A stretch of DNA of 64,000 nucleotides from Nostoc calcicola FACHB-3891 (GTDB taxonomy: Bacteria > Cyanobacteriota > Cyanobacteriia > Cyanobacteriales > Nostocaceae): positions 1-64,000 of the forward strand of contig NZ_JACJRQ010000005.1 of the NCBI RefSeq assembly GCF_014697355.1. The letters are read 5' to 3'. Made by a program: the position numbers and the translations under genes. Each line of letters opens with the position of its first letter. The first letter of the stretch is position 1. Positions 70 through 24,610 of this stretch are shown here, one piece after another. The notes under the pieces were generated by a model, which saw only the letters and a list, made by a program, of their open reading frames with translations, did not search any database and was not told the origin of the DNA.

Positions 70-2547
70 TCAGCTTTTTGTTGGTGTGTGACAGTTAGGG
101 TGCGGAATGTGGGTTTGATTTGGCGTATTTCCTGAATTTTGGGTACTCAGAACAATTTCAGCCAGTGCGCGGGGTGGTGTGTTGGGATTGCGAACAACTT
201 CTAAACGAGTTGTAAAATCTGGATGACTAGCCAGCACTTCCAAAGTTTCAGGAAAAGTATTAGCATTACTGGCGACAGCACGCACGGTAGCTACATAAGA
301 ATCTCTCGCTAACTGTCTTAAAACGGTGGCTGGTGTATTTGGGTGACAAGCAACTCGATAACGCACTGAACTATCAGTGTGACTTGCTAACTGTGACAAA
401 ATTTCAACAGGCATTTGTGAACCTTTGACAGGATGTTCAATAAAATCAGCAAGATTTTTGCTACTCATGCTTTTAACAGCCTGAGCAAGGACAATTCCTG
501 GTGTATTCGGGTTGCGTTGATTTACGAGATTTTCTTCTAAACCCAAGCGAGTGAGTATTGTCACAGGAGTATTGGGGTTAGCAGTCAGTTTCGTTTTCAC
601 TTCACGGCTGGTATCGTTGGCTAACCGCATTAAAATTTCCACAGGTGTATCGGGATGTTCTGCAACTTTGGCTCGGACTTGCTCAGATTCATCTTGTGCC
701 AATATTTCTAATAATTGAATAGGCGTTGGTGTTTTATTATGAGATGATTTGTAGGCAAGTGCCTGTCGAATTTTTACACTGGAATTTCGTGCCAGTCCGA
801 GTAAAAGATTGAGGGGTAAATTGGAGTTTTGTGAGACAGCTTGACGCACAGTCTCATCTGGATATTTTGCCAGTTGTTCTAAAATTTGAATCGGAGTTTT
901 ATTGCTACGTGCTGCAATCAATTTAGCTTTTTGATCTCCCTTTTCCACAACCTGCGCTAAAGCATAATAACTATGGGGACGCTGCGCCAATAATTCATTT
1001 GTTTTTGTAATTTCTTCTGCTTGTACTTGGGCTAAAAGCAAACGGTAACATCCCAAAATCATTTGCTGATATTCTTCTGGTATCAGCATTCGTTGATGTT
1101 CTTCCAAGTAAGGCACGTTAATATTTTTTAACGCGCATTCCCGCACTTGTATGTCATTATCTCTCACTAGCTCAATCAAAACTTCCACAGGAATGGAGGG
1201 ATTTTTCGCTACATAACAACGGATGATGCTATCTGATGATTTTGCCAGTTCCGTCAATCTGTTAAGTGATGTATTTGGATCTTGGCTTTCTCGCTCTAAG
1301 CTTTGCTGTTTATCTTTTGCTCTAAATCCTGATGAAATATGATAAACATGGTTAGTTGATTTTGCTGCCAATAAAGACTTTTTGAGAGCTTTCGGCGTTT
1401 TTGGATTGTTGATAACTGCTTCTTGTACTTGAGAACTTGAATCTTTAGCCAGTTGCTTAAGTGTACTTACTAATACTTGCGGATGTTTAGCAACATTAAC
1501 TCGCATCGATTCTAATGAATCATTTGCTAAAAGTTCGAGAATTTCTCCTGATATGTTTGCCTGATTGATTACCGAATTGACATAATAGTAAAAATTTTTC
1601 TCACTGCGATCGCCTACTATTTGCTCTATAATACTTAGCGGTAAATTTTTCCTTTGAGTAATAATTATATGTTTGTGCTTTGGATAGAGTTTTAATAATG
1701 CTTGTTCTGAAGTCTTGGGATGTTTTGCTACAGCCGTTTGAATTTCGTGAACAAAATGGTTTGCAAGCAAATTTAGTGCTTCTGTTGGAGTCAGAGGATT
1801 TCGAGAAATAGCTAACTGAATTTTATACGCCCCATCACCAGCCAACTGCATCAGCGTCTCTGAGGAAGCTGAAGGATTTTGTGCCACAGCCAACCTCACC
1901 CACGCCCAACGACTCTGCGCCAACATCGCTAATTGTTCAACATCTGTATTCCAGTCAGAGGCGATGGTATGCTGTCCTTCTACCAGTTCAATTAATGCCG
2001 GTGGACAACTAGGATTAAACTTCACCGCCAAGCGTATTGGTAATTCCAAATCACCCGCCAATTGTTCCAATACTGCCAAGGGCGTTTCTGGTGACTCTGC
2101 TACCTGCAAACGTGGTTCTAAAGTTGGTTCCTGTGCCAGTCGCTCCAATAGTTGCAAACGATACTTTAATGGCATGTGGGGATTACGCAAGCCTTCAATT
2201 AGTCGTTCGGCTGGCACCCACTCGCTGAGAAAATATGGTGGCACTGGGCCTAACTTGAGCAATTCTACAGCGAGGCGATCGTTTTGCCCTAGTTGCTGTT
2301 GTTGCAGCAGCGCATCTACTATTTGCTGCCAGCCGTCTGTTATTTCTCCAGCAAAGTTTACGTGTAAGCTTGCTGTTTCGGCTACTTGTGCATCAGGGCT
2401 ATTAACTAGAACCTCTAAGAGACTGCGGGGTGTGTCAGGAAAACTGGCGATCGCCAATTGCAAATCTCCTGACTGTTGCAATAACTCCTCTGGTGCTGAC
2501 AAAAACCCTTGCAAATCCGATCCGCTAACTGGCTGAAGAGGTCGCAT
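70..2547 (-). CDS. LRV (leucine-rich repeat variant) repeat protein
   Basis: The 825-residue protein is built almost wholly of repeats of about 24 residues. Each carries an A-x-x-x-N-P-x-T-P turn followed by a V/I-L-x-x-L-A helix; clear units lie around residues 170-300, 340-400, 440-475 and 545-810. This matches leucine-rich repeat variant / HEAT-like solenoids, which act as protein-binding scaffolds. I see no signal peptide, no membrane segment and no N-terminal four-cysteine cluster like that of the Azotobacter LRV iron-sulfur protein, so it is probably cytoplasmic. The start is the first ATG of the frame and has no clear ribosome binding site. Its partner is unknown, and the neighbouring pirin gene is separated by a palindrome, so an operon is not evident. 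Confidence 0.75.
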   Translation of the reverse strand: MRPLQPVSGSDLQGFLSAPEELLQQSGDLQLAIASFPDTPRSLLEVLVNSPDAQVAETASLHVNFAGEITDGWQQIVDALLQQQQLGQNDRLAVELLKLGPVPPYFLSEWVPAERLIEGLRNPHMPLKYRLQLLERLAQEPTLEPRLQVAESPETPLAVLEQLAGDLELPIRLAVKFNPSCPPALIELVEGQHTIASDWNTDVEQLAMLAQSRWAWVRLAVAQNPSASSETLMQLAGDGAYKIQLAISRNPLTPTEALNLLANHFVHEIQTAVAKHPKTSEQALLKLYPKHKHIIITQRKNLPLSIIEQIVGDRSEKNFYYYVNSVINQANISGEILELLANDSLESMRVNVAKHPQVLVSTLKQLAKDSSSQVQEAVINNPKTPKALKKSLLAAKSTNHVYHISSGFRAKDKQQSLERESQDPNTSLNRLTELAKSSDSIIRCYVAKNPSIPVEVLIELVRDNDIQVRECALKNINVPYLEEHQRMLIPEEYQQMILGCYRLLLAQVQAEEITKTNELLAQRPHSYYALAQVVEKGDQKAKLIAARSNKTPIQILEQLAKYPDETVRQAVSQNSNLPLNLLLGLARNSSVKIRQALAYKSSHNKTPTPIQLLEILAQDESEQVRAKVAEHPDTPVEILMRLANDTSREVKTKLTANPNTPVTILTRLGLEENLVNQRNPNTPGIVLAQAVKSMSSKNLADFIEHPVKGSQMPVEILSQLASHTDSSVRYRVACHPNTPATVLRQLARDSYVATVRAVASNANTFPETLEVLASHPDFTTRLEVVRNPNTPPRALAEIVLSTQNSGNTPNQTHIPHPNCHTPTKS

Positions 2548-2695
2548 GGCTGTTAAACTAAATTTTATAGTTCATTTATACTATAAAAAAGGATACGTGA
2601 AAACTATTGTAAAAGTTTTGTATCCCTCTGTTTAGAATTCCCGATGCGAGCATCAACTTAACGCAAAATCAGCGGTTAGAGTTCGCCCAATAATC

Positions 2696-2723
2696 GTAGG
2701 GGCGCACAGCTGTGCGCCCCTAC
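2696..2723. repeat. 28-bp perfect palindrome, copy 1 of a family
   Basis: Two 14-bp arms (GTAGGGGCGCACAG and its exact complement) meet without a loop. Further copies lie at 27872, 35381, 36785, 44147, 50028 and 57690. Here it lies between two minus-strand genes, downstream of the pirin gene, where it could form a hairpin in the transcript, but no T-run follows. Confidence 0.85.
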
Positions 2724-2752
2724 AACAGTGGTCTATTCAACTACTTAGGATA

Positions 2753-3469
2753 TTAACCCAAATCAAAAAGCAAGATTTCGCCGCCGATATTGGTGCTAAT
2801 TTCTAGCTGTTCTTCGCCGTTGATTTGTACGCCATCGCCGGCTCTGAGTTCTTCACCATTTAAGTTGACTATACCTTGGGCTACTTGTAACCAAGCATAG
2901 CGATCGCCTTTTACTTGATAATTAACAACATCACCTGACTCTAAAACAGAGGCGTATAAATCAACATCTTGGTGAATTGTCACAGCACCATCGCGCCCAT
3001 CTTTAGCAGCAATTAAGCGTAATTGACCGCGCTTTTCTTCAATGGGAAAAGCTTTTTGTTCGTATCTTGGTGTCAACCCTTCTTCGTCAGGAAGAATCCA
3101 GATTTGTAGCAAGTGCAGTGGTTCAGTTGGTGAAGGATTAAATTCGCTGTGGCTGATTCCAGTACCAGCACTCATAATTTGGGCATCACCGGGACGAATT
3201 ACTGAGCCAGTACCCAAGCTGTCTTTGTGTTCTACAGCACCTTCTAACACATAAGTGAGAATTTCCATGTCACGATGACCGTGGGTAGGAAATCCAGAAC
3301 CAGGGGCGATGCGATCGTCGTTGATGACTCGCAGAGAACGAAATCCCATACGGTTGGGATCGTAAAAACTACCGAAGGAAAATGTATGATAACTATCGAG
3401 CCAGCCTGTTTGAGCGTGACCGCGGGCATTGCGATCGTGAATTAAGTGGGTAATTGTATTTTTAGACAT
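2753..3469 (-). CDS. Pirin family protein (YhaK-type cupin)
   Basis: At 238 residues this has the usual length of a bacterial pirin. The N-terminal cupin carries the metal-binding set His63, His65 (PTHGHRDME), His107 and Glu109 (SHSEFN). Related proteins include quercetin 2,3-dioxygenase-like enzymes and redox-linked regulators, so the substrate cannot be named from sequence. The C-terminal half is the second cupin domain (residues about 160-238). The start is supported by a GAGGTA ribosome binding site 8 nt upstream of the ATG. It is monocistronic as far as can be seen. The next upstream gene is dps, 420 bp away, so a shared oxidative-stress role is only a guess. Confidence 0.88.
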
Positions 3470-3888
3470 AGATTTACCTCGTTGTTAATTGTTTTTAGAA
3501 GTGTTCAGAATTCTTATTTATTCAATCTAATTTTGAACTATTTAAATAGTAAAGTATATACAGACAAAATGAAAAGTACGTACTTAAAAGTGCCATACTT
3601 ACCAAAAAGATACTGTAAAATTTTACAGTCTTTTTCAATTGAATAGCATTGTTTTCTTGATATGAAAAAATAAAAATATTTATAGGTTGGGTTTTCCCAG
3701 AGTAAGCCAATAAAACCTAATACAGTTCAGATAGAGCTACAAAACCCTCATGTAGAGACGCGATTTATCGCGTCTTTTCTAGACCAATTATCTACACTTA
3801 ACATTTCTATAAATAATATGGTGCGTTACGGCTTTAGCCGTAACGCACCCTACTAGTTAAGATTTACTGTTCCCTGATTGAAAAGTGC
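3470..3888. other. Intergenic region with two palindromic repeats
   Basis: This stretch between dps and the pirin gene is AT-rich and holds no convincing gene. It includes an AGACGCGAT/ATCGCGTCT inverted repeat (3756-3775), belonging to a repeat family also seen at about 25885, 47268 and 58996, and a 13-bp-arm palindrome at 3820-3849 that is listed separately. The pirin promoter must lie in its left part, but I cannot pick out reliable -10/-35 boxes. Confidence 0.6.
3820..3849. terminator. Perfect 13-bp-arm hairpin downstream of dps
   Basis: GGTGCGTTACGGC, a TTTA loop and the exact complementary arm lie 40 bp beyond the dps stop codon. Position suggests a transcript end for dps, but no T-run follows on the minus strand. 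A degenerate relative (GGTGTGTTA...TAACGCACC) occurs at 38832-38862, so it is a dispersed repeat that may have been co-opted. Confidence 0.5.
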
Positions 3889-17799: not shown

Positions 17800-18009
17800 A
17801 TGAAATTAACAGCAACAGAAGAAGGCTTATTAATCCCTAAAGAACTATTAGGAGAAAACCAAGAATTTGAGATTATTCAAGAAAATGGAAAAATTATTAT
17901 TACTAGCATCAAAAAAACATCTTCTATTTGGGATTTAGGTTCAAATCCTGTGGAATGTGATGTAAAAGATGGTGCAATTAACCACGATCGCTATCTCTAT
18001 AACCCATGA
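17800..18009 (+). CDS. Antitoxin-like protein of a VapBC-type pair
   Basis: A 69-residue protein with an N-terminal AbrB-like or swapped-hairpin look (MKLTATEEGLLIPKELL, then FEIIQENGKIIITSI) and a polar C-terminal tail that would wrap the toxin. Its stop overlaps the start of the PIN-domain gene by 4 bp (ATGA), a translational coupling typical of toxin-antitoxin operons. AGGTAA 9 nt upstream can serve as ribosome binding site. Its family cannot be fixed from sequence; the role is inferred from the partner. Confidence 0.72.
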   Translation: MKLTATEEGLLIPKELLGENQEFEIIQENGKIIITSIKKTSSIWDLGSNPVECDVKDGAINHDRYLYNP

Positions 18010-18419
18010 GAGATATCTACTTTTTAGATACCAGCTATATTTTAGCTCTGGAAATCAAAAATGAAGATGCTCATCAAAAAGTATTACAAAATTGGGCTAA
18101 TTTAATAAAATCCAAACCTTTTTTAATCACAACAACATACATTTTTGATGAAGTTGTTACTTTTTTTAATAGTCGGAACCTTCATTATAAAGCCGTTGAA
18201 GTTGGTAATCGGTTATTGGAAAGTCCTGATATAGAATTAATCGAAGTTGATCGAACTCTATTTAATCAGGGATGGGAATATTTTCAAAAGCATAAAGACA
18301 AATCTTATTCTCTCACTGATTGTTTATCATTTATCGTTATGCAACAACGAGAGATTGTTACAGCTTTAACCTTAGATAATCATTTTTATCAAGCTGGATT
18401 TCAAATTTTACCATCATAA
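18006..18419 (+). CDS. PIN-domain ribonuclease toxin (VapC-like)
   Basis: The 137-residue protein has the PIN acidic quartet: Asp8 (FLDTSYIL), Glu49 (FDEVVT), Asp105 (SLTDCLS) and Asp124 (TLDNHF). Such proteins cleave RNA, often initiator tRNA or rRNA loops, and are held inactive by the co-encoded antitoxin. Start overlaps the antitoxin stop. The T/S-T-Y-I-F-D-E-V segment suits the subgroup common in cyanobacteria. It is followed directly by 21-bp tandem repeats. Confidence 0.88.
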   Translation: MRDIYFLDTSYILALEIKNEDAHQKVLQNWANLIKSKPFLITTTYIFDEVVTFFNSRNLHYKAVEVGNRLLESPDIELIEVDRTLFNQGWEYFQKHKDKSYSLTDCLSFIVMQQREIVTALTLDNHFYQAGFQILPS

Positions 18420-18746: not shown

Positions 18747-21700
18747 TCAAGGCTGACGATTCCGCCGCAAGTCTTCCAGATTTTCACGGTAGGTTATTGT
18801 ATTGGGATGATTTGCCCCTAAGCATTTTTCAGCAATTTCCAAAGCTTCGACGTACAAAGGTTCGGCTTCGCTGTACCTTCCCTGTGAATTGTAGAGTCTA
18901 GCCAAATTGCTCAGGCTAGTTGCCACATCTGGGTGTTCATCCCCCAGCAGGCGTTTTCTCATCGCCAAAGCTTCGACGTACAAAGGTTCGGCTTCGCTGT
19001 ACCTTCCCTGTGAATTGTAGAGTCTAGCCAAATTGCTCAGGCTAGTTGCCACATCTGGGTGTTCATCCCCCAGCAGACGTTTATACATCGCTAAAGCTTC
19101 GATGTACAAAGGTTCGGCTTCGCTGTACCTTCCCTGTGAATTGTAAAGTCCAGCCGAATCGTTCAGGCTAGTTGCCACATCTGGGTGTTCATCCCCCAGC
19201 AGGCGTTTTCTCATGGCCAAAGCTTCGATGTACAAAGGTTCGGCTTCGCTGTACCTTCCTTGTGAATGGTAGAGGAATGCCAAATTGTTCAGGATAGTTG
19301 CCACCCAAGGGTGTTCATCCCCCACCAGGCGTTTTGTCATCGCCAAAGCTTGGATGTACAAAGGTTCGGCTTCGCTGTATCTTCCTTGTGAATAGTAGAG
19401 TTCTGCCAAATCGTTCAGGCTAGTTGCCACATCTGGATGTTCATCCCCCAGCAGGCGTTTTCTCATCGCCAAAGCTTCGATAAACAAAGGTTCGGTTTCG
19501 CTGTACCTTCCCTGTGAATTGTAGAGTAATGCCAAATCGTTAAGGCTAGTTGCCACATCTGGGTGTTCATCTCCCAGCAGGCGTTTTCTCATGGCCAAAG
19601 CTTGGATGTGCAAAGGTTCGGCTTCGCTGTACCTTCCCTGTGAATAGTAGAGTAATCCCAAATCGTTCAGGCTAGTTGCCACATCTGGGTGTTCATCCCC
19701 CAGCAGGCGTTTTCTCATAGCCAAAGCTTGGATGTGCAAAGGTTCGGCTTCGCTGTACCTTCCCTGTGAATAGTAGAGTAATGCCAAATTGTTCAGGCTA
19801 GTTGCCACATCTGGGTGTTCATCGCCGAAACGTTTTCTTGTAGAGGATAAACATTGTTCACACCACGGTAAGGCTTGGGCGTAGGCTCCTTGACCTAGGT
19901 AAAAGCTACTTAAGCCTACAAAAGGCCAGATTAAATCATCATCTCTTAACCAAGCTTGGTAAACTGTGGCAGCTTCCGCAAGGTGAGGGATAACTAGGGT
20001 TGCTTGAGCAATGTCTCTCAATGTGGGTATGCTAGGAATATCTTTTGCTACTCCTAACATTGCTTGACAATAGCCACGCTTGAGTTCATCTGCTTCAGCT
20101 AACTCTTCTAACTTGTCACTCAAGAATTCTCGAATCAGCTGATGCAGTTGGTAAGTTTCTTCTCCAGTGCGCTGAAGTAAACTCAGATTCACTAGGTAAT
20201 CATCTCTGACATCTTCTAAATCTTCTGAGTCTTGGTTGGGTAAACACCTTTCCACTAAATACCAAGGAATGGGAGCTAGAGCAAAAATACTGAGCAAACA
20301 CCCCAAATTTTGGGCTTGGTTATCTAGTTCCTGCCAACTTAATTCAAAAGCAGCAACAACTCCTCGTTGTGCTGTCATTTCTGCCGATGGCTCTTGCATT
20401 GAACGATGTGTTAGCAGCTTCTCTGCTAATCTTTGCCGCATTTTAGCTAGAGATACATCCGGTTTACGTTGCAAATATCGCGCTACTAACTCTAAACCTA
20501 AAGGCAAAAATCCTAAATCAGCACAGAGTTGTTTTGCTTCGTCTAGTTCCCTTTGTATCCGCTCATCCCCAACAAAGGAAACTAACAATTCCAAAGCAGC
20601 TACTTCCTCTAAAACTTCTAAGCATAACCGCTCAAAAGACTGCCCCAACCACTGTTGCCGTGTGGTGATGAGTATTTTAAACCTTGGCTCACTTGGCGGT
20701 AGGTAGGGTTTTACCTGCTCATATTTACTAACATCATCGAATACTAACAGCACATCGCCTGCTTGCCATTGCCGCCACATGTAATTAATCTGAGTTGGTA
20801 AATCCCCATCCTCTGGTAGCTGCAAACCTAACTTGTCTCTAGCAAACGCGACAATCTGAGTTCCCAAATCTTCATCCCTCACGCGCAACCAGCAAACTCC
20901 GCCTGTGTAAGTGGCTTCCTGCCAATGATGTTGAGCATATTGCAGCGCTAGTTCACTTTTGCCGATACCACCCATGCCAGTAACAGTAGTAATGGCAACT
21001 CGTTGCCTTCGCTGCAACTGTTCGTGTAGCGTTGCAAGTGCTTGTTCTCGTCCGACAAACTTTTTAACGCCACTGCGGGGAAGATTTTGTGGTGAAGTGA
21101 GCGTTCCTACACGATACTCTTCTCTATCTCCATCCCAATTTTGCTTATATAAATAGATGGGAGCTTGGTTTTTGTTTAATTGCTCCAAACGCTGTTTAAC
21201 TTGTTCGGCAATTACTTTCATATTCGGCGGAAAAATCTCAGTAGATGCTTCCTCTAAAGCCTCCCGCACAGCTTGAGAAAAGTATCCTGTTTTATTTTCA
21301 GAATTTACCTTAGCTTGCTCTCCTTCCCGCGTAGCCAGTAACACAAATTGTTGACTATCTTTATGTGGCTGTCCACTCAAAAAAGCTTTGCCACCTAAAT
21401 TAGTTGGTCTTCCTTTGGACTCTAAAACATAATTGGCACAGGCATCAATAATACAAATATGATTGCGAATCTGAAATTTATCGGAACCCAACAAAACTAA
21501 TAAAGAATTCAGATCTAAATTCTGCCAATTCTGTTTATTGGCATCAGCACAAAGCAACCGACGCTCTCGTTCTGAGGTAATCAAACCATGTCCCGCCCAA
21601 AAAATGTAGAGTAAATCTCCCGACTTTGGGGATAAAAAGTTAGTCAGAATGTCGGAGATATTTTGCTCTGTTGCTAACTCTACAGTTAACCCACATTCCC

Positions 21701-21902
21701 CAATTAACTGCTGATTTTCTTCCAGCGCTGATAAACATAACCGCATATTCTCCTTCGGCACACCGCGCCGATGCAGCCAATCAGCAAATTTCAGCGCGTC
21801 ATCGGCTGGCCCTCCACCCGTCACATTCCAAGTAGATTCGTGGTACTTTTCAATACCCACAATTAACCCAAAAGTGCGCTCAGGTTTCGCCATCAACTGC
21901 AT
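18747..21902 (-). CDS. Caspase-like / NB-ARC / TPR STAND protein
   Basis: A protein of about 1050 residues with three modules. (Numbering is from a GTG at 21920, which overlaps the AGGAGG ribosome binding site; ATG at 21902 is the likelier start, though spaced far.) Residues 15-270 are a caspase-like C14 protease with the His111/Cys161 dyad (FWAGHG and IIDACANY). Residues 290-580 are an NB-ARC NTPase: P-loop GMGGIGKS 315-322, Walker B LLVFDD 391-396, ILITTRQQW and a GLxPLGLEL motif. Residues about 660-1050 are TPRs of the kinesin-light-chain type, eight 42-residue units sharing SQGRYSEAEPL. This is the architecture of a sensor-switch-effector conflict or cell-death protein: TPRs sense, NTPase oligomerises, protease acts. 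Two genes upstream may belong to the same cassette. Confidence 0.88.
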   Translation of the reverse strand: MQLMAKPERTFGLIVGIEKYHESTWNVTGGGPADDALKFADWLHRRGVPKENMRLCLSALEENQQLIGECGLTVELATEQNISDILTNFLSPKSGDLLYIFWAGHGLITSERERRLLCADANKQNWQNLDLNSLLVLLGSDKFQIRNHICIIDACANYVLESKGRPTNLGGKAFLSGQPHKDSQQFVLLATREGEQAKVNSENKTGYFSQAVREALEEASTEIFPPNMKVIAEQVKQRLEQLNKNQAPIYLYKQNWDGDREEYRVGTLTSPQNLPRSGVKKFVGREQALATLHEQLQRRQRVAITTVTGMGGIGKSELALQYAQHHWQEATYTGGVCWLRVRDEDLGTQIVAFARDKLGLQLPEDGDLPTQINYMWRQWQAGDVLLVFDDVSKYEQVKPYLPPSEPRFKILITTRQQWLGQSFERLCLEVLEEVAALELLVSFVGDERIQRELDEAKQLCADLGFLPLGLELVARYLQRKPDVSLAKMRQRLAEKLLTHRSMQEPSAEMTAQRGVVAAFELSWQELDNQAQNLGCLLSIFALAPIPWYLVERCLPNQDSEDLEDVRDDYLVNLSLLQRTGEETYQLHQLIREFLSDKLEELAEADELKRGYCQAMLGVAKDIPSIPTLRDIAQATLVIPHLAEAATVYQAWLRDDDLIWPFVGLSSFYLGQGAYAQALPWCEQCLSSTRKRFGDEHPDVATSLNNLALLYYSQGRYSEAEPLHIQALAMRKRLLGDEHPDVATSLNDLGLLYYSQGRYSEAEPLHIQALAMRKRLLGDEHPDVATSLNDLALLYNSQGRYSETEPLFIEALAMRKRLLGDEHPDVATSLNDLAELYYSQGRYSEAEPLYIQALAMTKRLVGDEHPWVATILNNLAFLYHSQGRYSEAEPLYIEALAMRKRLLGDEHPDVATSLNDSAGLYNSQGRYSEAEPLYIEALAMYKRLLGDEHPDVATSLSNLARLYNSQGRYSEAEPLYVEALAMRKRLLGDEHPDVATSLSNLARLYNSQGRYSEAEPLYVEALEIAEKCLGANHPNTITYRENLEDLRRNRQP
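18840..19850 (-). repeat. 126-bp tandem repeats encoding the TPR array
   Basis: Eight direct 126-bp units, each one TPR of 42 residues. The two nearest the 3' end of the gene (starting at about 18840 and 18966) are identical for roughly the first 107 bp on the plus strand, while others differ by scattered substitutions. This shows recent expansion or gene conversion. Confidence 0.85.
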
Positions 21903-21939
21903 GATGATTTGGTTTCTCACCTCCTATGGAAAATGACCT

Positions 21940-22085
21940 AACCCCCTAATCCCCTAACCCCCTTCCCTAGCAGGGAATCTACCGTGTACACACTTGAATT
22001 ACCCCCCTTAATCCCCCCTTGGAAAGGGGGGAAAAAAGAAATCTAGTTCCCTCCCCTTTACAAGGGGAGGGTTAGGGTGGGGTAA
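21940..22085. repeat. C/G-run repeat DNA between hydrolase and caspase genes
   Basis: CCCCCTAATCCCC units and an inverted pair (CCCCCCTT...AAGGGGGG around 22003-22032) occupy the gap. It separates the two minus-strand genes without an obvious new promoter, so cotranscription is possible, and the hairpin could modulate expression of the caspase gene. Confidence 0.55.
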
Positions 22086-22089
22086 ACCA

Positions 22090-23265
22090 TTATGGCAGCC
22101 TCGAAATAATCGCCTCCCAGGTTTTGGCATTTGTCCAATAAGCACCGTGGGAACGGGGAAAGGGTTGTCTGCTATCCACTCGCACATCCTGCACTCTATC
22201 AGGGAAAATTTTCTTACCCACGTAACTGAGAAAATCCCGTAAATCGTAGATATTCAACCATTCCGGGAAATGCTCTGGTAATAACTGCCCATATTTTAAG
22301 CTGTAGAGGGCGTTAATTTCATATAAAAATGGTGCTTGGGAACCAACCGTCACCAATAATTCCACCTGAGACAACTGCTGCTGCACTAGCAAATCTACAC
22401 AAGCAATTCCTCCCAAGCTATGGGCGATTAAAACCACTGGCGGTTCTGCTTGTTCAATTTGTTCCTGGATAAACTCCCTGATTTTTTCACCCCGCGTCTG
22501 ATACAACAAAATATCACCAGGCATAGGCGAAATTTTATCAGTTAGCTGAAAGCGGTTTCCTCTGACATAATTTGTTCCGATGGGCAAGGCTAACTCAACA
22601 AGTGGCTTTAACAACCAGCCACCCAATCCTAATTCCGCCTCTCCCAAAGCCAGAGTCAGCAATTCCACAACTTTATCCCGCAATTGGGCATCGGTGAGTA
22701 TCGGCGGAAATTTTTCTTGCTGTTCGCTAATAAACATTGCTTGAGCGACAACTGCTCTAGCTATTAGTGCATAATACTCGCTCAAATCAGATTCGGAAAC
22801 TGTGAGCAATGCCAGTTTATACGGTTCACTCTGGATAACCGCCTCTCGTGCTGGCTCAAATACCTCTGCAATTCCCGCCTCTTGCAACTTAGCTTGTAGT
22901 TGAGATGCCGAAGTGAGACTGGCTAGACGAGATTGTAAAATATCACCTGGATCTTCCCCAAAGGGATTTCCTGCCTCAACAGGTTTCAAAGACAACAGCC
23001 GTAACTCATACAGAGGATCGCGGTATAATTGCCCCCACAACACAATATCTGCGTCTTCTTCTCCTTGAGATAAAGCCAGTGTTGCATCTTCCAAGGGTAC
23101 TGATGCGCGATTCTCATTGAACTTTGCACCTAATGCACCCCAAAGACAGGGAGCAACTTTGATATCAGGACGTTGGGCGTGAATTTTTTGCTCAATTATC
23201 TCAAAGGTTTCGTTGTATTCTCGTTCCCTAATGCCAGTGCCATGTACAAATATTACAGTGGTCAT
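22090..23265 (-). CDS. Alpha/beta hydrolase (lipase-like) of the caspase cassette
   Basis: A 391-residue protein beginning TTVIFVHGTGIRE, the first strand and oxyanion loop of an alpha/beta hydrolase. The nucleophile elbow is Ser283 in LIAHSLGGIAC; Asp341 or Asp344 (YDLRDF) and His373 (RSHGAYW) complete a possible triad. A long insert (residues about 40-250) carries helices and no membrane anchor. It lies between a small unknown gene and the caspase-NB-ARC-TPR gene on the same strand. Esterases and caspases occur as alternative effectors in NTPase-linked bacterial conflict systems, so a role as co-effector is inferred. Substrate unknown. Confidence 0.8.
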   Translation of the reverse strand: MTTVIFVHGTGIREREYNETFEIIEQKIHAQRPDIKVAPCLWGALGAKFNENRASVPLEDATLALSQGEEDADIVLWGQLYRDPLYELRLLSLKPVEAGNPFGEDPGDILQSRLASLTSASQLQAKLQEAGIAEVFEPAREAVIQSEPYKLALLTVSESDLSEYYALIARAVVAQAMFISEQQEKFPPILTDAQLRDKVVELLTLALGEAELGLGGWLLKPLVELALPIGTNYVRGNRFQLTDKISPMPGDILLYQTRGEKIREFIQEQIEQAEPPVVLIAHSLGGIACVDLLVQQQLSQVELLVTVGSQAPFLYEINALYSLKYGQLLPEHFPEWLNIYDLRDFLSYVGKKIFPDRVQDVRVDSRQPFPRSHGAYWTNAKTWEAIISRLP

Positions 23266-23365
23266 TGTTTATTACAAGGGTGGCTAGCGTGCCTGGGTTG
23301 GGCTACGCCTACGCCAAGCTTTCCTCTGTATTATTCCTTACTACTTTCTCTGACACAAGTTGATT

Positions 23366-23794
23366 TCATTCACTTGGCTTATTAAAAACCTCTAAAATCT
23401 GTCGGCAAATCTGTTTGAGCTTATCTCCAATTTCATCAGAAGGGGAAGATGCGCCGACAACACTCCAGTTTTCCACCGTAGAAAGTCGCCACGCCTCACC
23501 GCGATGATCGAACCCAGCTACCTCCACACCGATCGCTCGCCGTAAATTAGTAATGGGATCTTGATAAAATCGGATTTGAATTAAGACACTGCGACTTCGC
23601 CAAGATTTGCTAATACCAGGAAAGTGAAAGCCAATATCTATAGAATCTGGATCGACTAACTCCCTGGTTTCCGGGTCATTTTTCCAGGGTTTGAGGTCAG
23701 ATTTGGCATCAGGGAACTCGAATTTGAACAAATTAACTACCGTAGCAATGTTGCTGGCGAGTTCAAGGTTCGTTGCCTGTTCAGCTGCGTTCAC
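23366..23794 (-). CDS. Hypothetical protein, first gene of the caspase cassette
   Basis: A 142-residue protein not recognised. It has an N-terminal helix (ASNIATVVNLFKFEFPDA), then beta-rich segments (VLIQIRFYQD, AIGVEVAGFDHRGEAWRLST) and a C-terminal helix (KLKQICRQILEVF). It has no signal, no membrane segment and few cysteines. It precedes the hydrolase by 100 bp on the same strand, so it may be an adaptor or sensor linked to the hydrolase and caspase. That role is inferred from position only. Confidence 0.6.
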   Translation of the reverse strand: MNAAEQATNLELASNIATVVNLFKFEFPDAKSDLKPWKNDPETRELVDPDSIDIGFHFPGISKSWRSRSVLIQIRFYQDPITNLRRAIGVEVAGFDHRGEAWRLSTVENWSVVGASSPSDEIGDKLKQICRQILEVFNKPSE

Positions 23795-24154: not shown

Positions 24155-24610
24155 ATGGCGCGTCAACGCTCGATTTTTTCATTGATTTTAGTATTATTGG
24201 CGACATTTCTCATTAGTTGTGGCGGTCCTGGTGTCGCAGTGGCACCTCCAACGTACACAACAGCTCAAATTGAGAAAATTCAGCTATACGTTCCTGAAAT
24301 TCAGGCTGTGCTCGATCGCTCAGAAGAGTTGAAAAGCCTGATCCAAAAACAAGATTGGATCAATGTGAGTAACTTTATACATGGCCCGGTAACCTCAGCG
24401 AGGCTAAACCTGACTTATGTCACTCCCAACCTTCTGCCCAACGACCAAGCTAAAGCACGTCAAATAACGCGAGATTTGTTTAACCACTTGGTTAAAGTCA
24501 ATCAAGGCGCTTCCTCTAGCAACCCTCAACTTGCATTGAGTAATTCGGAAGCCGCTTTCGCAGATATTGACAAATTCCTCCAGTTGCTTCCTGAGGCAAG
24601 CACTCAATAG
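24155..24610 (+). CDS. psbQ: Photosystem II lipoprotein PsbQ (CyanoQ)
   Basis: A 151-residue lipoprotein: an N-terminal hydrophobic segment ends in the lipobox LISC with Cys22 as the acylated residue. The mature part is a four-helix-bundle PsbQ: YVPEIQAVLDRSEELKSLIQKQDWINVSNFIHGP, LLPNDQAKARQITRDLFNHL and ADIDKFLQLLPEAS match the cyanobacterial family. The protein sits on the lumenal side of photosystem II and stabilises the oxygen-evolving complex. It is transcribed away from the caspase cassette. The ATG is at 24155; no strong ribosome binding site is visible. Confidence 0.9.
   Translation: MARQRSIFSLILVLLATFLISCGGPGVAVAPPTYTTAQIEKIQLYVPEIQAVLDRSEELKSLIQKQDWINVSNFIHGPVTSARLNLTYVTPNLLPNDQAKARQITRDLFNHLVKVNQGASSSNPQLALSNSEAAFADIDKFLQLLPEASTQ

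Follow-up and report, generated by a model that had tools for sequence, protein, structure and literature searches.

An alpha/beta-hydrolase and a caspase–NB-ARC–TPR protein of Nostoc calcicola form an NLR-like, two-gene version of a known conflict-system pairing

The 64,000-nucleotide stretch of Nostoc calcicola FACHB-3891 analysed here (contig NZ_JACJRQ010000005.1, positions 1 to 64,000; hereafter the window) comes from an assembly of 9.03 Mb in 98 contigs. On its minus strand it carries a gene for an alpha/beta-hydrolase of 391 amino acids (22090..23265) followed by a gene for a caspase fused to an NB-ARC switch and a TPR array (18747..21920; 1057 amino acids counted from GTG). The gene for a 142-amino-acid cyanobacterial core protein (23366..23794, minus strand) lies on the other side of the hydrolase gene, and we judge it to be a flanking gene outside the system. 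The original prediction had grouped all three as a possible conflict system, and the open reading frames (ORFs) confirm that three same-strand genes lie together. As described below, the hydrolase and the caspase/STAND protein constitute a co-inherited two-gene unit, and the locus is a two-gene, NLR-like variant of a conflict-system pairing that has already been described; the mechanism of activation that we discuss for it is a proposal.

The caspase domain occupies residues 1-268 of the fusion protein (21117..21920, minus strand), with the dyad His111/Cys161 and Asp159. It is followed by the NB-ARC switch (about residues 287-620; 20061..21062, minus strand; Pfam E=3e-17) and by the TPR array, a putative sensor (about residues 690-1050; 18771..19853, minus strand; Pfam E=7e-137), in which nine GDEHP/GANHP marks recur with a period of 42 residues. 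A P-loop motif at 315, containing Lys321, a Walker B motif (LLVFDDV at 391), a GxP motif (GFLPLGLEL at 470) and C-terminal repeats identify the protein as a STAND ATPase of the NB-ARC (AP-ATPase) class, in agreement with the predicted fusion of a caspase to NB-ARC and TPRs with intact motifs. The caspase domain was identified by PADLOC (8e-12) and by the NCBIfam model caspase_w_EACC1 (1e-9; 38 bits, cut-off 140); by itself it had no Pfam match at E<=0.01. Its orthologue at locus L097, 66% identical over this domain, matches Peptidase_C14 at 1.9e-11, and an alignment of 45 relatives shows His111 and Cys161 in every sequence and Asp159 in 44. The His-Cys dyad and the Peptidase_C14 matches of orthologues place the domain in the C14 caspase family, among the orthocaspases. 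The true start of the protein is likely to be the ATG of the sequence MQLMA rather than the GTG, as MQLMA or its equivalent opens the ORFs of most close relatives (e.g. L062).

The predicted Ser283/His373 serine hydrolase was likewise borne out, by the ORF, a weak Pfam match, an AlphaFold2 model and a conserved triad. Ser283, Asp344 and His373 are invariant in all 43 homologues, drawn from cyanobacteria, actinobacteria, Burkholderia and a virus-annotated contig, and Asp344, which the prediction did not include, is the probable acid of the triad. Pfam scores fall just under the cut-offs (Abhydrolase_6, 24.3 vs 26.3 bits), and a profile search of solved structures returned no credible relative (best E 0.007). 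The AlphaFold2 model, built from 25 sequences (mean predicted local distance difference test score (pLDDT) 74.6, predicted template modelling score 0.74), has a strand-elbow-helix arrangement in which strand 277-282 runs into Ser283. This modelled nucleophile elbow and the invariant triad identify the protein as an alpha/beta-hydrolase. Between strand 36-42 and helix 250-271 the model places a helical insert (72-209), bordered by two stretches of pLDDT <50: residues 44-68 (23062..23136, minus strand), with invariant G46, S55 and P57, and residues 211-253 (22507..22635, minus strand). The latter contains Arg238 (codon 22552-22554), invariant in 43/43, often flanked by further basic residues, as in KRRRG, and the sole invariant basic residue within the two low-confidence stretches, and this loop is our candidate cleavage region.

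The hydrolase matched 29 of 145 genomes of the window's family, with 24 full-length genes and two that are broken or shortened (G038, G120); three weak partial matches (G018, G037, G100) were left out of the counts. A search of 140 family genomes for the caspase domain (E<=1e-10) found it in 20, always as the next gene after the hydrolase and in the same orientation, and all 20 belong to the 24 genomes whose hydrolase is full-length; of the G058 caspase, 41 residues can be read before the sequence passes into a run of N. The relationship is asymmetric: a caspase without a hydrolase was found in 0/20 cases and a full-length hydrolase without a detected caspase in 4/24 (G102 and G089, both with TPR remnants and the latter with the caspase start fused to TPRs; G028; and G022). 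In the genome_contigs set, which overlaps the family sample (at least five contigs are of equal length), the caspase is present at 24 of 27 loci, and the remaining three match the hydrolase only partially. An order-wide search with a profile of family sequences matched 18 of 291 genomes and yielded, outside the family, 11 new loci spread over 10 genomes; the caspase adjoins the hydrolase at ten of these, and the eleventh has a broken hydrolase and no caspase. Both L159 and L160, from other families, carry the pair (2/2). Within cyanobacteria the hydrolase was found only in the window's order, which holds all 12 matches among 386 genomes of the phylum. The two genes overlap in the divergent members L095-L099, L103 and L159, and most close relatives have a spacing of 146-647 bp between them, with an overlapping ORF start at L075. 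Evolutionary distances agree with this linkage: across 38 loci, hydrolase and caspase distances are strongly correlated (Mantel r 0.96, 0/5000 shuffles as high), and at the 30 loci whose NB-ARC could be compared the correlation is 0.91 between hydrolase and caspase and 0.41 between hydrolase and NB-ARC. These observations establish the pair as the co-inherited unit, and of the grouping proposed originally the hydrolase–caspase part stands (20/20 in the family, 10/11 at further loci) while the 142-amino-acid protein drops out. The survey of hydrolase neighbourhoods that had been suggested thus found a caspase beside 20 of the 24 full-length family genes.

By contrast with the constant pair, the C-terminal part of the caspase protein is an exchangeable sensor or switch. 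As assigned by Pfam, the caspase is followed by NB-ARC–TPR in the window and at L063, by NB-ARC without recognised repeats at L097 and L098, by NACHT–HEAT at L102 and L207, by WD40 at L210 (where tblastn also picks up a weak NB-ARC-like region, 27%), by an FGE-sulfatase domain at L096, and by VMAP-C with an adjacent MoxR gene at L103 and L208. At L211 it carries EAD2 and is followed by VMAP-like (a weak VMAP match) and MoxR genes; at L206 (10537-12144) a Ser/Thr kinase is fused directly to the caspase beside the hydrolase, and at L209 nothing lies behind the caspase. Exchange is also evident at close range. The NB-ARC of the window is 94-96% identical to those of L063, L068 and L071 and only 41-50% identical to those of most other close relatives, which nevertheless keep caspases 78-87% identical. 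In the hydrolase tree the window groups with L061 (support 100/98), where a switch like that of the window is missing, rather than with L063 or L068, so the switch has been exchanged independently of the hydrolase. At L076 (7470-11635) a split switch is followed, in the next ORF, by an NB-ARC 89-90% identical to that of the window; this is a plausible intermediate of switch replacement, in a metagenome assembly that may be chimeric. A related NB-ARC (69% identity) also occurs with a different protease, in a CHAT–NB-ARC–TPR gene at L124 (genome G104; 112-3771, minus strand).

Most close relatives differ from the one-chain protein of the window in that their NB-ARC is split over two ORFs, the first encoding the caspase and the nucleotide-binding half (about 482 amino acids) and the second, which overlaps it, beginning with the remaining part of the NB-ARC and carrying the TPRs. 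L062 (7365-10603) is an example, with 20 further rows across Nostocaceae among the 23 that passed a motif and length filter. At the junctions of these 23 we found a 7-nucleotide overlap (ATGCTAG or similar) in 18, overlapping TGATG in two and a short gap in one; L061 and L075 do not fit the pattern. A programmed frameshift was considered and set aside: a start codon is present at the junction in 21 of the 23, often with a GGGAG/GGAGG-like sequence ahead of it, so separate translation, although not proven, is the simpler explanation. Similar divisions of the NB-ARC occur in another family (L160; also L203 and L205), and the split form is in effect a natural two-piece STAND protein.

The pairing itself is known from VMAP ternary systems. 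In the accessible text of Kaur et al. (2020, eLife, PMC7159879), VMAP systems with a caspase-family domain always have a neighbouring alpha/beta-hydrolase gene, and a related hydrolase is also reported from GAP1 systems; the original description of the window as holding an undescribed system was therefore too strong. Its comparison with the conflict systems of multicellular bacteria was apt, as hydrolases of the same family are encoded in VMAP/MoxR loci: L103, L208, L211 and the loci of all eight non-cyanobacterial homologues (L183-L190). These homologues comprise seven matches on replicons catalogued as plasmids, from actinobacteria and Burkholderia (33-41% identity, >=95% coverage) and a single match among viral contigs (L190); phage records gave no hydrolase match. 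By eye, neighbouring ORFs on the L190 contig look like a reverse transcriptase and transposon genes. All eight lie upstream of a gene for a MoxR-type ATPase and of another large gene, and seven have a caspase; VMAP-C was recognised by Pfam in three of four plasmid proteins tested (L184, L188 and L189, not L183). The large third gene of the VMAP/MoxR loci encodes variable domains (TIR, trypsin, NACHT, FGE-sulfatase or none recognised). No Pfam match to a vWA domain was found in the seven third genes tested (L103, L184, L208, L211, L183, L190, L188), so the label 'vWA' follows the gene's place in the locus and the published account. The window differs from these systems: seven tblastn queries from relatives (two VMAP-C, three MoxR and two third-gene, or 'vWA-position', proteins) gave no match at E<=1e-3 in the whole 64 kb, and the caspase is instead fused to NB-ARC and TPRs. 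In the hydrolase tree the VMAP- and STAND-linked cyanobacterial hydrolases form one group (support 98/98).

Other known systems share some of these features. The two-gene EACC1–caspase system, as far as the accessible text of PMC7159879 describes it, also combines a constant 5' gene with a caspase of highly variable C-terminus, and the window caspase matches the corresponding NCBIfam model weakly; EACC1, however, is a one-helix membrane protein there, whereas the 5' gene of the window encodes an enzyme with an intact triad, and neither the hydrolase nor the 142-amino-acid protein matched EACC1. The nuclease–protease pairs and caspase–nuclease (canu) loci in the available portion of PMC12799240 likewise combine a protease with a hydrolase-fold enzyme encoded by a gene of its own, the protease being joined to a defence enzyme in several systems, and their pro-effectors have insertions blocking the active site; there the partner is a metallo-beta-lactamase-fold nuclease and canA has Ig-like folds, unlike the Ser-Asp-His alpha/beta-hydrolase of the window, for which activation is only proposed. 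AP-ATPase (NB-ARC)–TPR proteins, NLR-like and apoptosome-like STAND proteins, resemble the window protein in uniting a protease, an NB-ARC and a sensor made of repeats within a single polypeptide; the window protease differs in having a dedicated hydrolase partner, and most of its close relatives in splitting the NB-ARC. Cyanobacterial orthocaspases share the His-Cys dyad and varied accessory domains, and the accessible parts of two accounts of them (PMC8283722, PMC3501461) make no mention of an adjacent alpha/beta-hydrolase; the 2012 survey records NB-ARC only in two caspase homologues of Chloroflexus. We found no description of an alpha/beta-hydrolase beside a caspase–NB-ARC–TPR gene in the literature searched, a search that left out supplements and most subscription papers and so leaves absence unproven. 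Nor did that literature yield a coupling of the pair to NB-ARC–TPR, NACHT–HEAT, WD40, kinase or FGE-sulfatase. Here the VMAP-type pairing is tied to NLR- and apoptosome-like switches, and the natural replacement of switches on a constant effector pair offers material for studying how bacterial immune receptors are assembled.

The architecture of the two proteins suggests how they might act together. Asp159 and Cys161 form an Asp-x-Cys signature, and we take Asp211 of the metacaspase TbMCA2 to stand in the same position, two residues before the catalytic cysteine. Conservation of Asp159 is consistent with cleavage after Arg or Lys. Metacaspases favour these residues, and in TbMCA2 Asp211 lies in the potential S1 pocket, according to the part of PMC4357240 that was accessible. 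Precedent for activation by cleavage comes from pro-nucleases gated by insertions that block the active site and activated by a caspase or trypsin, as given in the available text of PMC12799240. Because the cap and its loops, Arg238, the Asp-x-Cys signature and this published precedent all point the same way, our leading model, to which we give an even chance, is a two-gene conflict cassette in which a switch-activated caspase unlocks a capped pro-hydrolase. A trigger would bind the TPRs, the NB-ARC would exchange nucleotide and oligomerise, and the attached caspases would be activated by proximity. They would then cut the cap-inhibited hydrolase in the flexible loop around Arg238, and the released enzyme would attack an ester substrate, most likely a membrane lipid, so that an infected or stressed cell might be halted or killed in a form of cell death or phage defence. 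If a bacterial caspase does activate a lipase-like pro-enzyme by cutting one conserved loop, caspase-driven death in bacteria would have a further type of executioner alongside pore formers and nucleases. A broader version is possible but doubtful: a portable 'caspase plus pro-lipase' module, its cap-locked hydrolase unlocked at a conserved arginine loop, would serve at least eight sensor or switch arrangements (counting fused NB-ARC–TPR, split NB-ARC, repeat-less NB-ARC, NACHT–HEAT, WD40, FGE-sulfatase, kinase, VMAP/MoxR and stand-alone forms) and bring about a pyroptosis-like, lipid-destroying death without gasdermin.

Several observations weigh against this model. Arg238 is not the only invariant residue of the low-confidence loops (G46, S55, P57 and D251 are others), so the loops may equally be structured; they may be conserved structure that is poorly predicted from 25 related sequences, and Arg238 may have a catalytic or structural role instead. 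Fine-scale coevolution of the pair was looked for among 23 close loci and not found (r 0.07, 1433/5000 shuffles as high), and is therefore not established. At the 16 close loci that include the 142-amino-acid gene, the hydrolase tracks that gene (r 0.47) over the caspase (r 0.02), as would be expected if descent at one site was vertical and the caspase gene underwent exchange. At L189 a homologous hydrolase belongs to a VMAP locus with EAD2 and without a caspase, and PADLOC returned no match for ten neighbouring genes of the window.

The strongest competitor, though an unlikely one, is that hydrolase and caspase are independent effectors under one switch, the hydrolase acting on a lipid or other ester and the caspase on other proteins, with no cleavage of one by the other. 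Exposure and cleavage of the Arg238 loop are themselves predictions, and the accessible text of Kaur et al. (PMC7159879) states merely that the two operate jointly; adjacency and one-to-one pairing across very different C-termini fit direct dependence better. Slightly less credible again is the reading that the caspase is the killing effector and the hydrolase restrains it or protects against it in the manner of an immunity protein. The asymmetric losses would be expected if the caspase alone were harmful, but a mere inhibitor would not need a triad invariant in 43/43 homologues, and protease and pro-effector pairs have a direct precedent (PMC12799240, in its accessible portion). The converse arrangement, a toxic hydrolase restrained by the caspase, was rejected on the same asymmetry: four of 24 family genomes retain a full-length hydrolase without a detected caspase, and such one-sided loss argues against restraint by the caspase and not against restraint by the hydrolase. 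A regulatory proteolysis circuit in stress or development, rather than defence, seems improbable; confinement of the cyanobacterial hydrolase to one order and the lack of matches in phage records and, by PADLOC, among the ten neighbours are in its favour, whereas patchiness (24/145 full-length), occurrence at several genomic sites, decay, and replacement of the switch are typical of conflict systems, and homologues lie on plasmid-filed actinobacterial and Burkholderia replicons and on a virus-annotated contig. A three-gene system including the 142-amino-acid protein is scarcely credible: the shared strand, the 100-bp spacing and the presence of that gene on the fetched stretch at 19 of 27 genome_contigs loci speak for it, but the protein is encoded by a class-wide core gene, 18 of the 24 full-length family hydrolases lie away from it (two of them in genomes without a match to it), and at L005 and L024 it stands near katA without the pair.

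The distribution of the 142-amino-acid gene marks it as a class-wide cyanobacterial core gene and a bystander rather than a component. Of 145 family genomes 140 have it, as do 103 of 244 phylum genomes; the latter all belong to the class of the window, and some of them measure 1.6-1.8 Mb. Eleven of 114 genomes of the class lack it, and the list of phylum genomes without it, ordered by kinship, extends past the class. To 20 sequences from other families the protein shows 33-74% identity; the gene is single-copy in the source assembly, and some genomes have a second copy of about 40% identity. It adjoins the hydrolase in only seven of the 140 family genomes (G000, G110, G131, G059, G134, G084 and G038, the last with a decayed hydrolase), so the neighbourhood survey suggested for its homologues went against their association with the hydrolase. 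Its frequency in the genome_contigs loci is explained by a single shared genomic site, which at L005 and L024 is seen without the pair, katA lying 875 and 135 bp from the gene and no hydrolase intervening. On its other side a PsbQ-family gene (24155-24610 in the window; Pfam 1.5e-14) flanks it in 24 of 30 family loci. The protein has no Pfam match above cut-off and no hydrophobic segment (top 19-residue mean hydropathy 0.81); as a core protein of no characterised function it deserves a structure.

On the far side of the caspase gene, and converging on it, lie a small ORF with a sub-threshold match to the MazE antitoxin and a PIN-domain gene (17801-18419). An orthocaspase that cuts the antitoxin of a toxin–antitoxin pair has been reported (PMC7935541, accessible part), and this neighbour was considered as a caspase target and rejected, the PIN gene occurring elsewhere only at L061 among 47 mapped loci. 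A scan for promoters and terminators gave 7 (9.1 in shuffles) and 8 (5.9 in shuffles), within about one standard deviation of chance. The gap between hydrolase and caspase genes (21932-22060) contains C-rich repeats of the CCCCTAACCCCCT type, and ORFs in the corresponding gap at L075 and L076 suggest a similar filling there.

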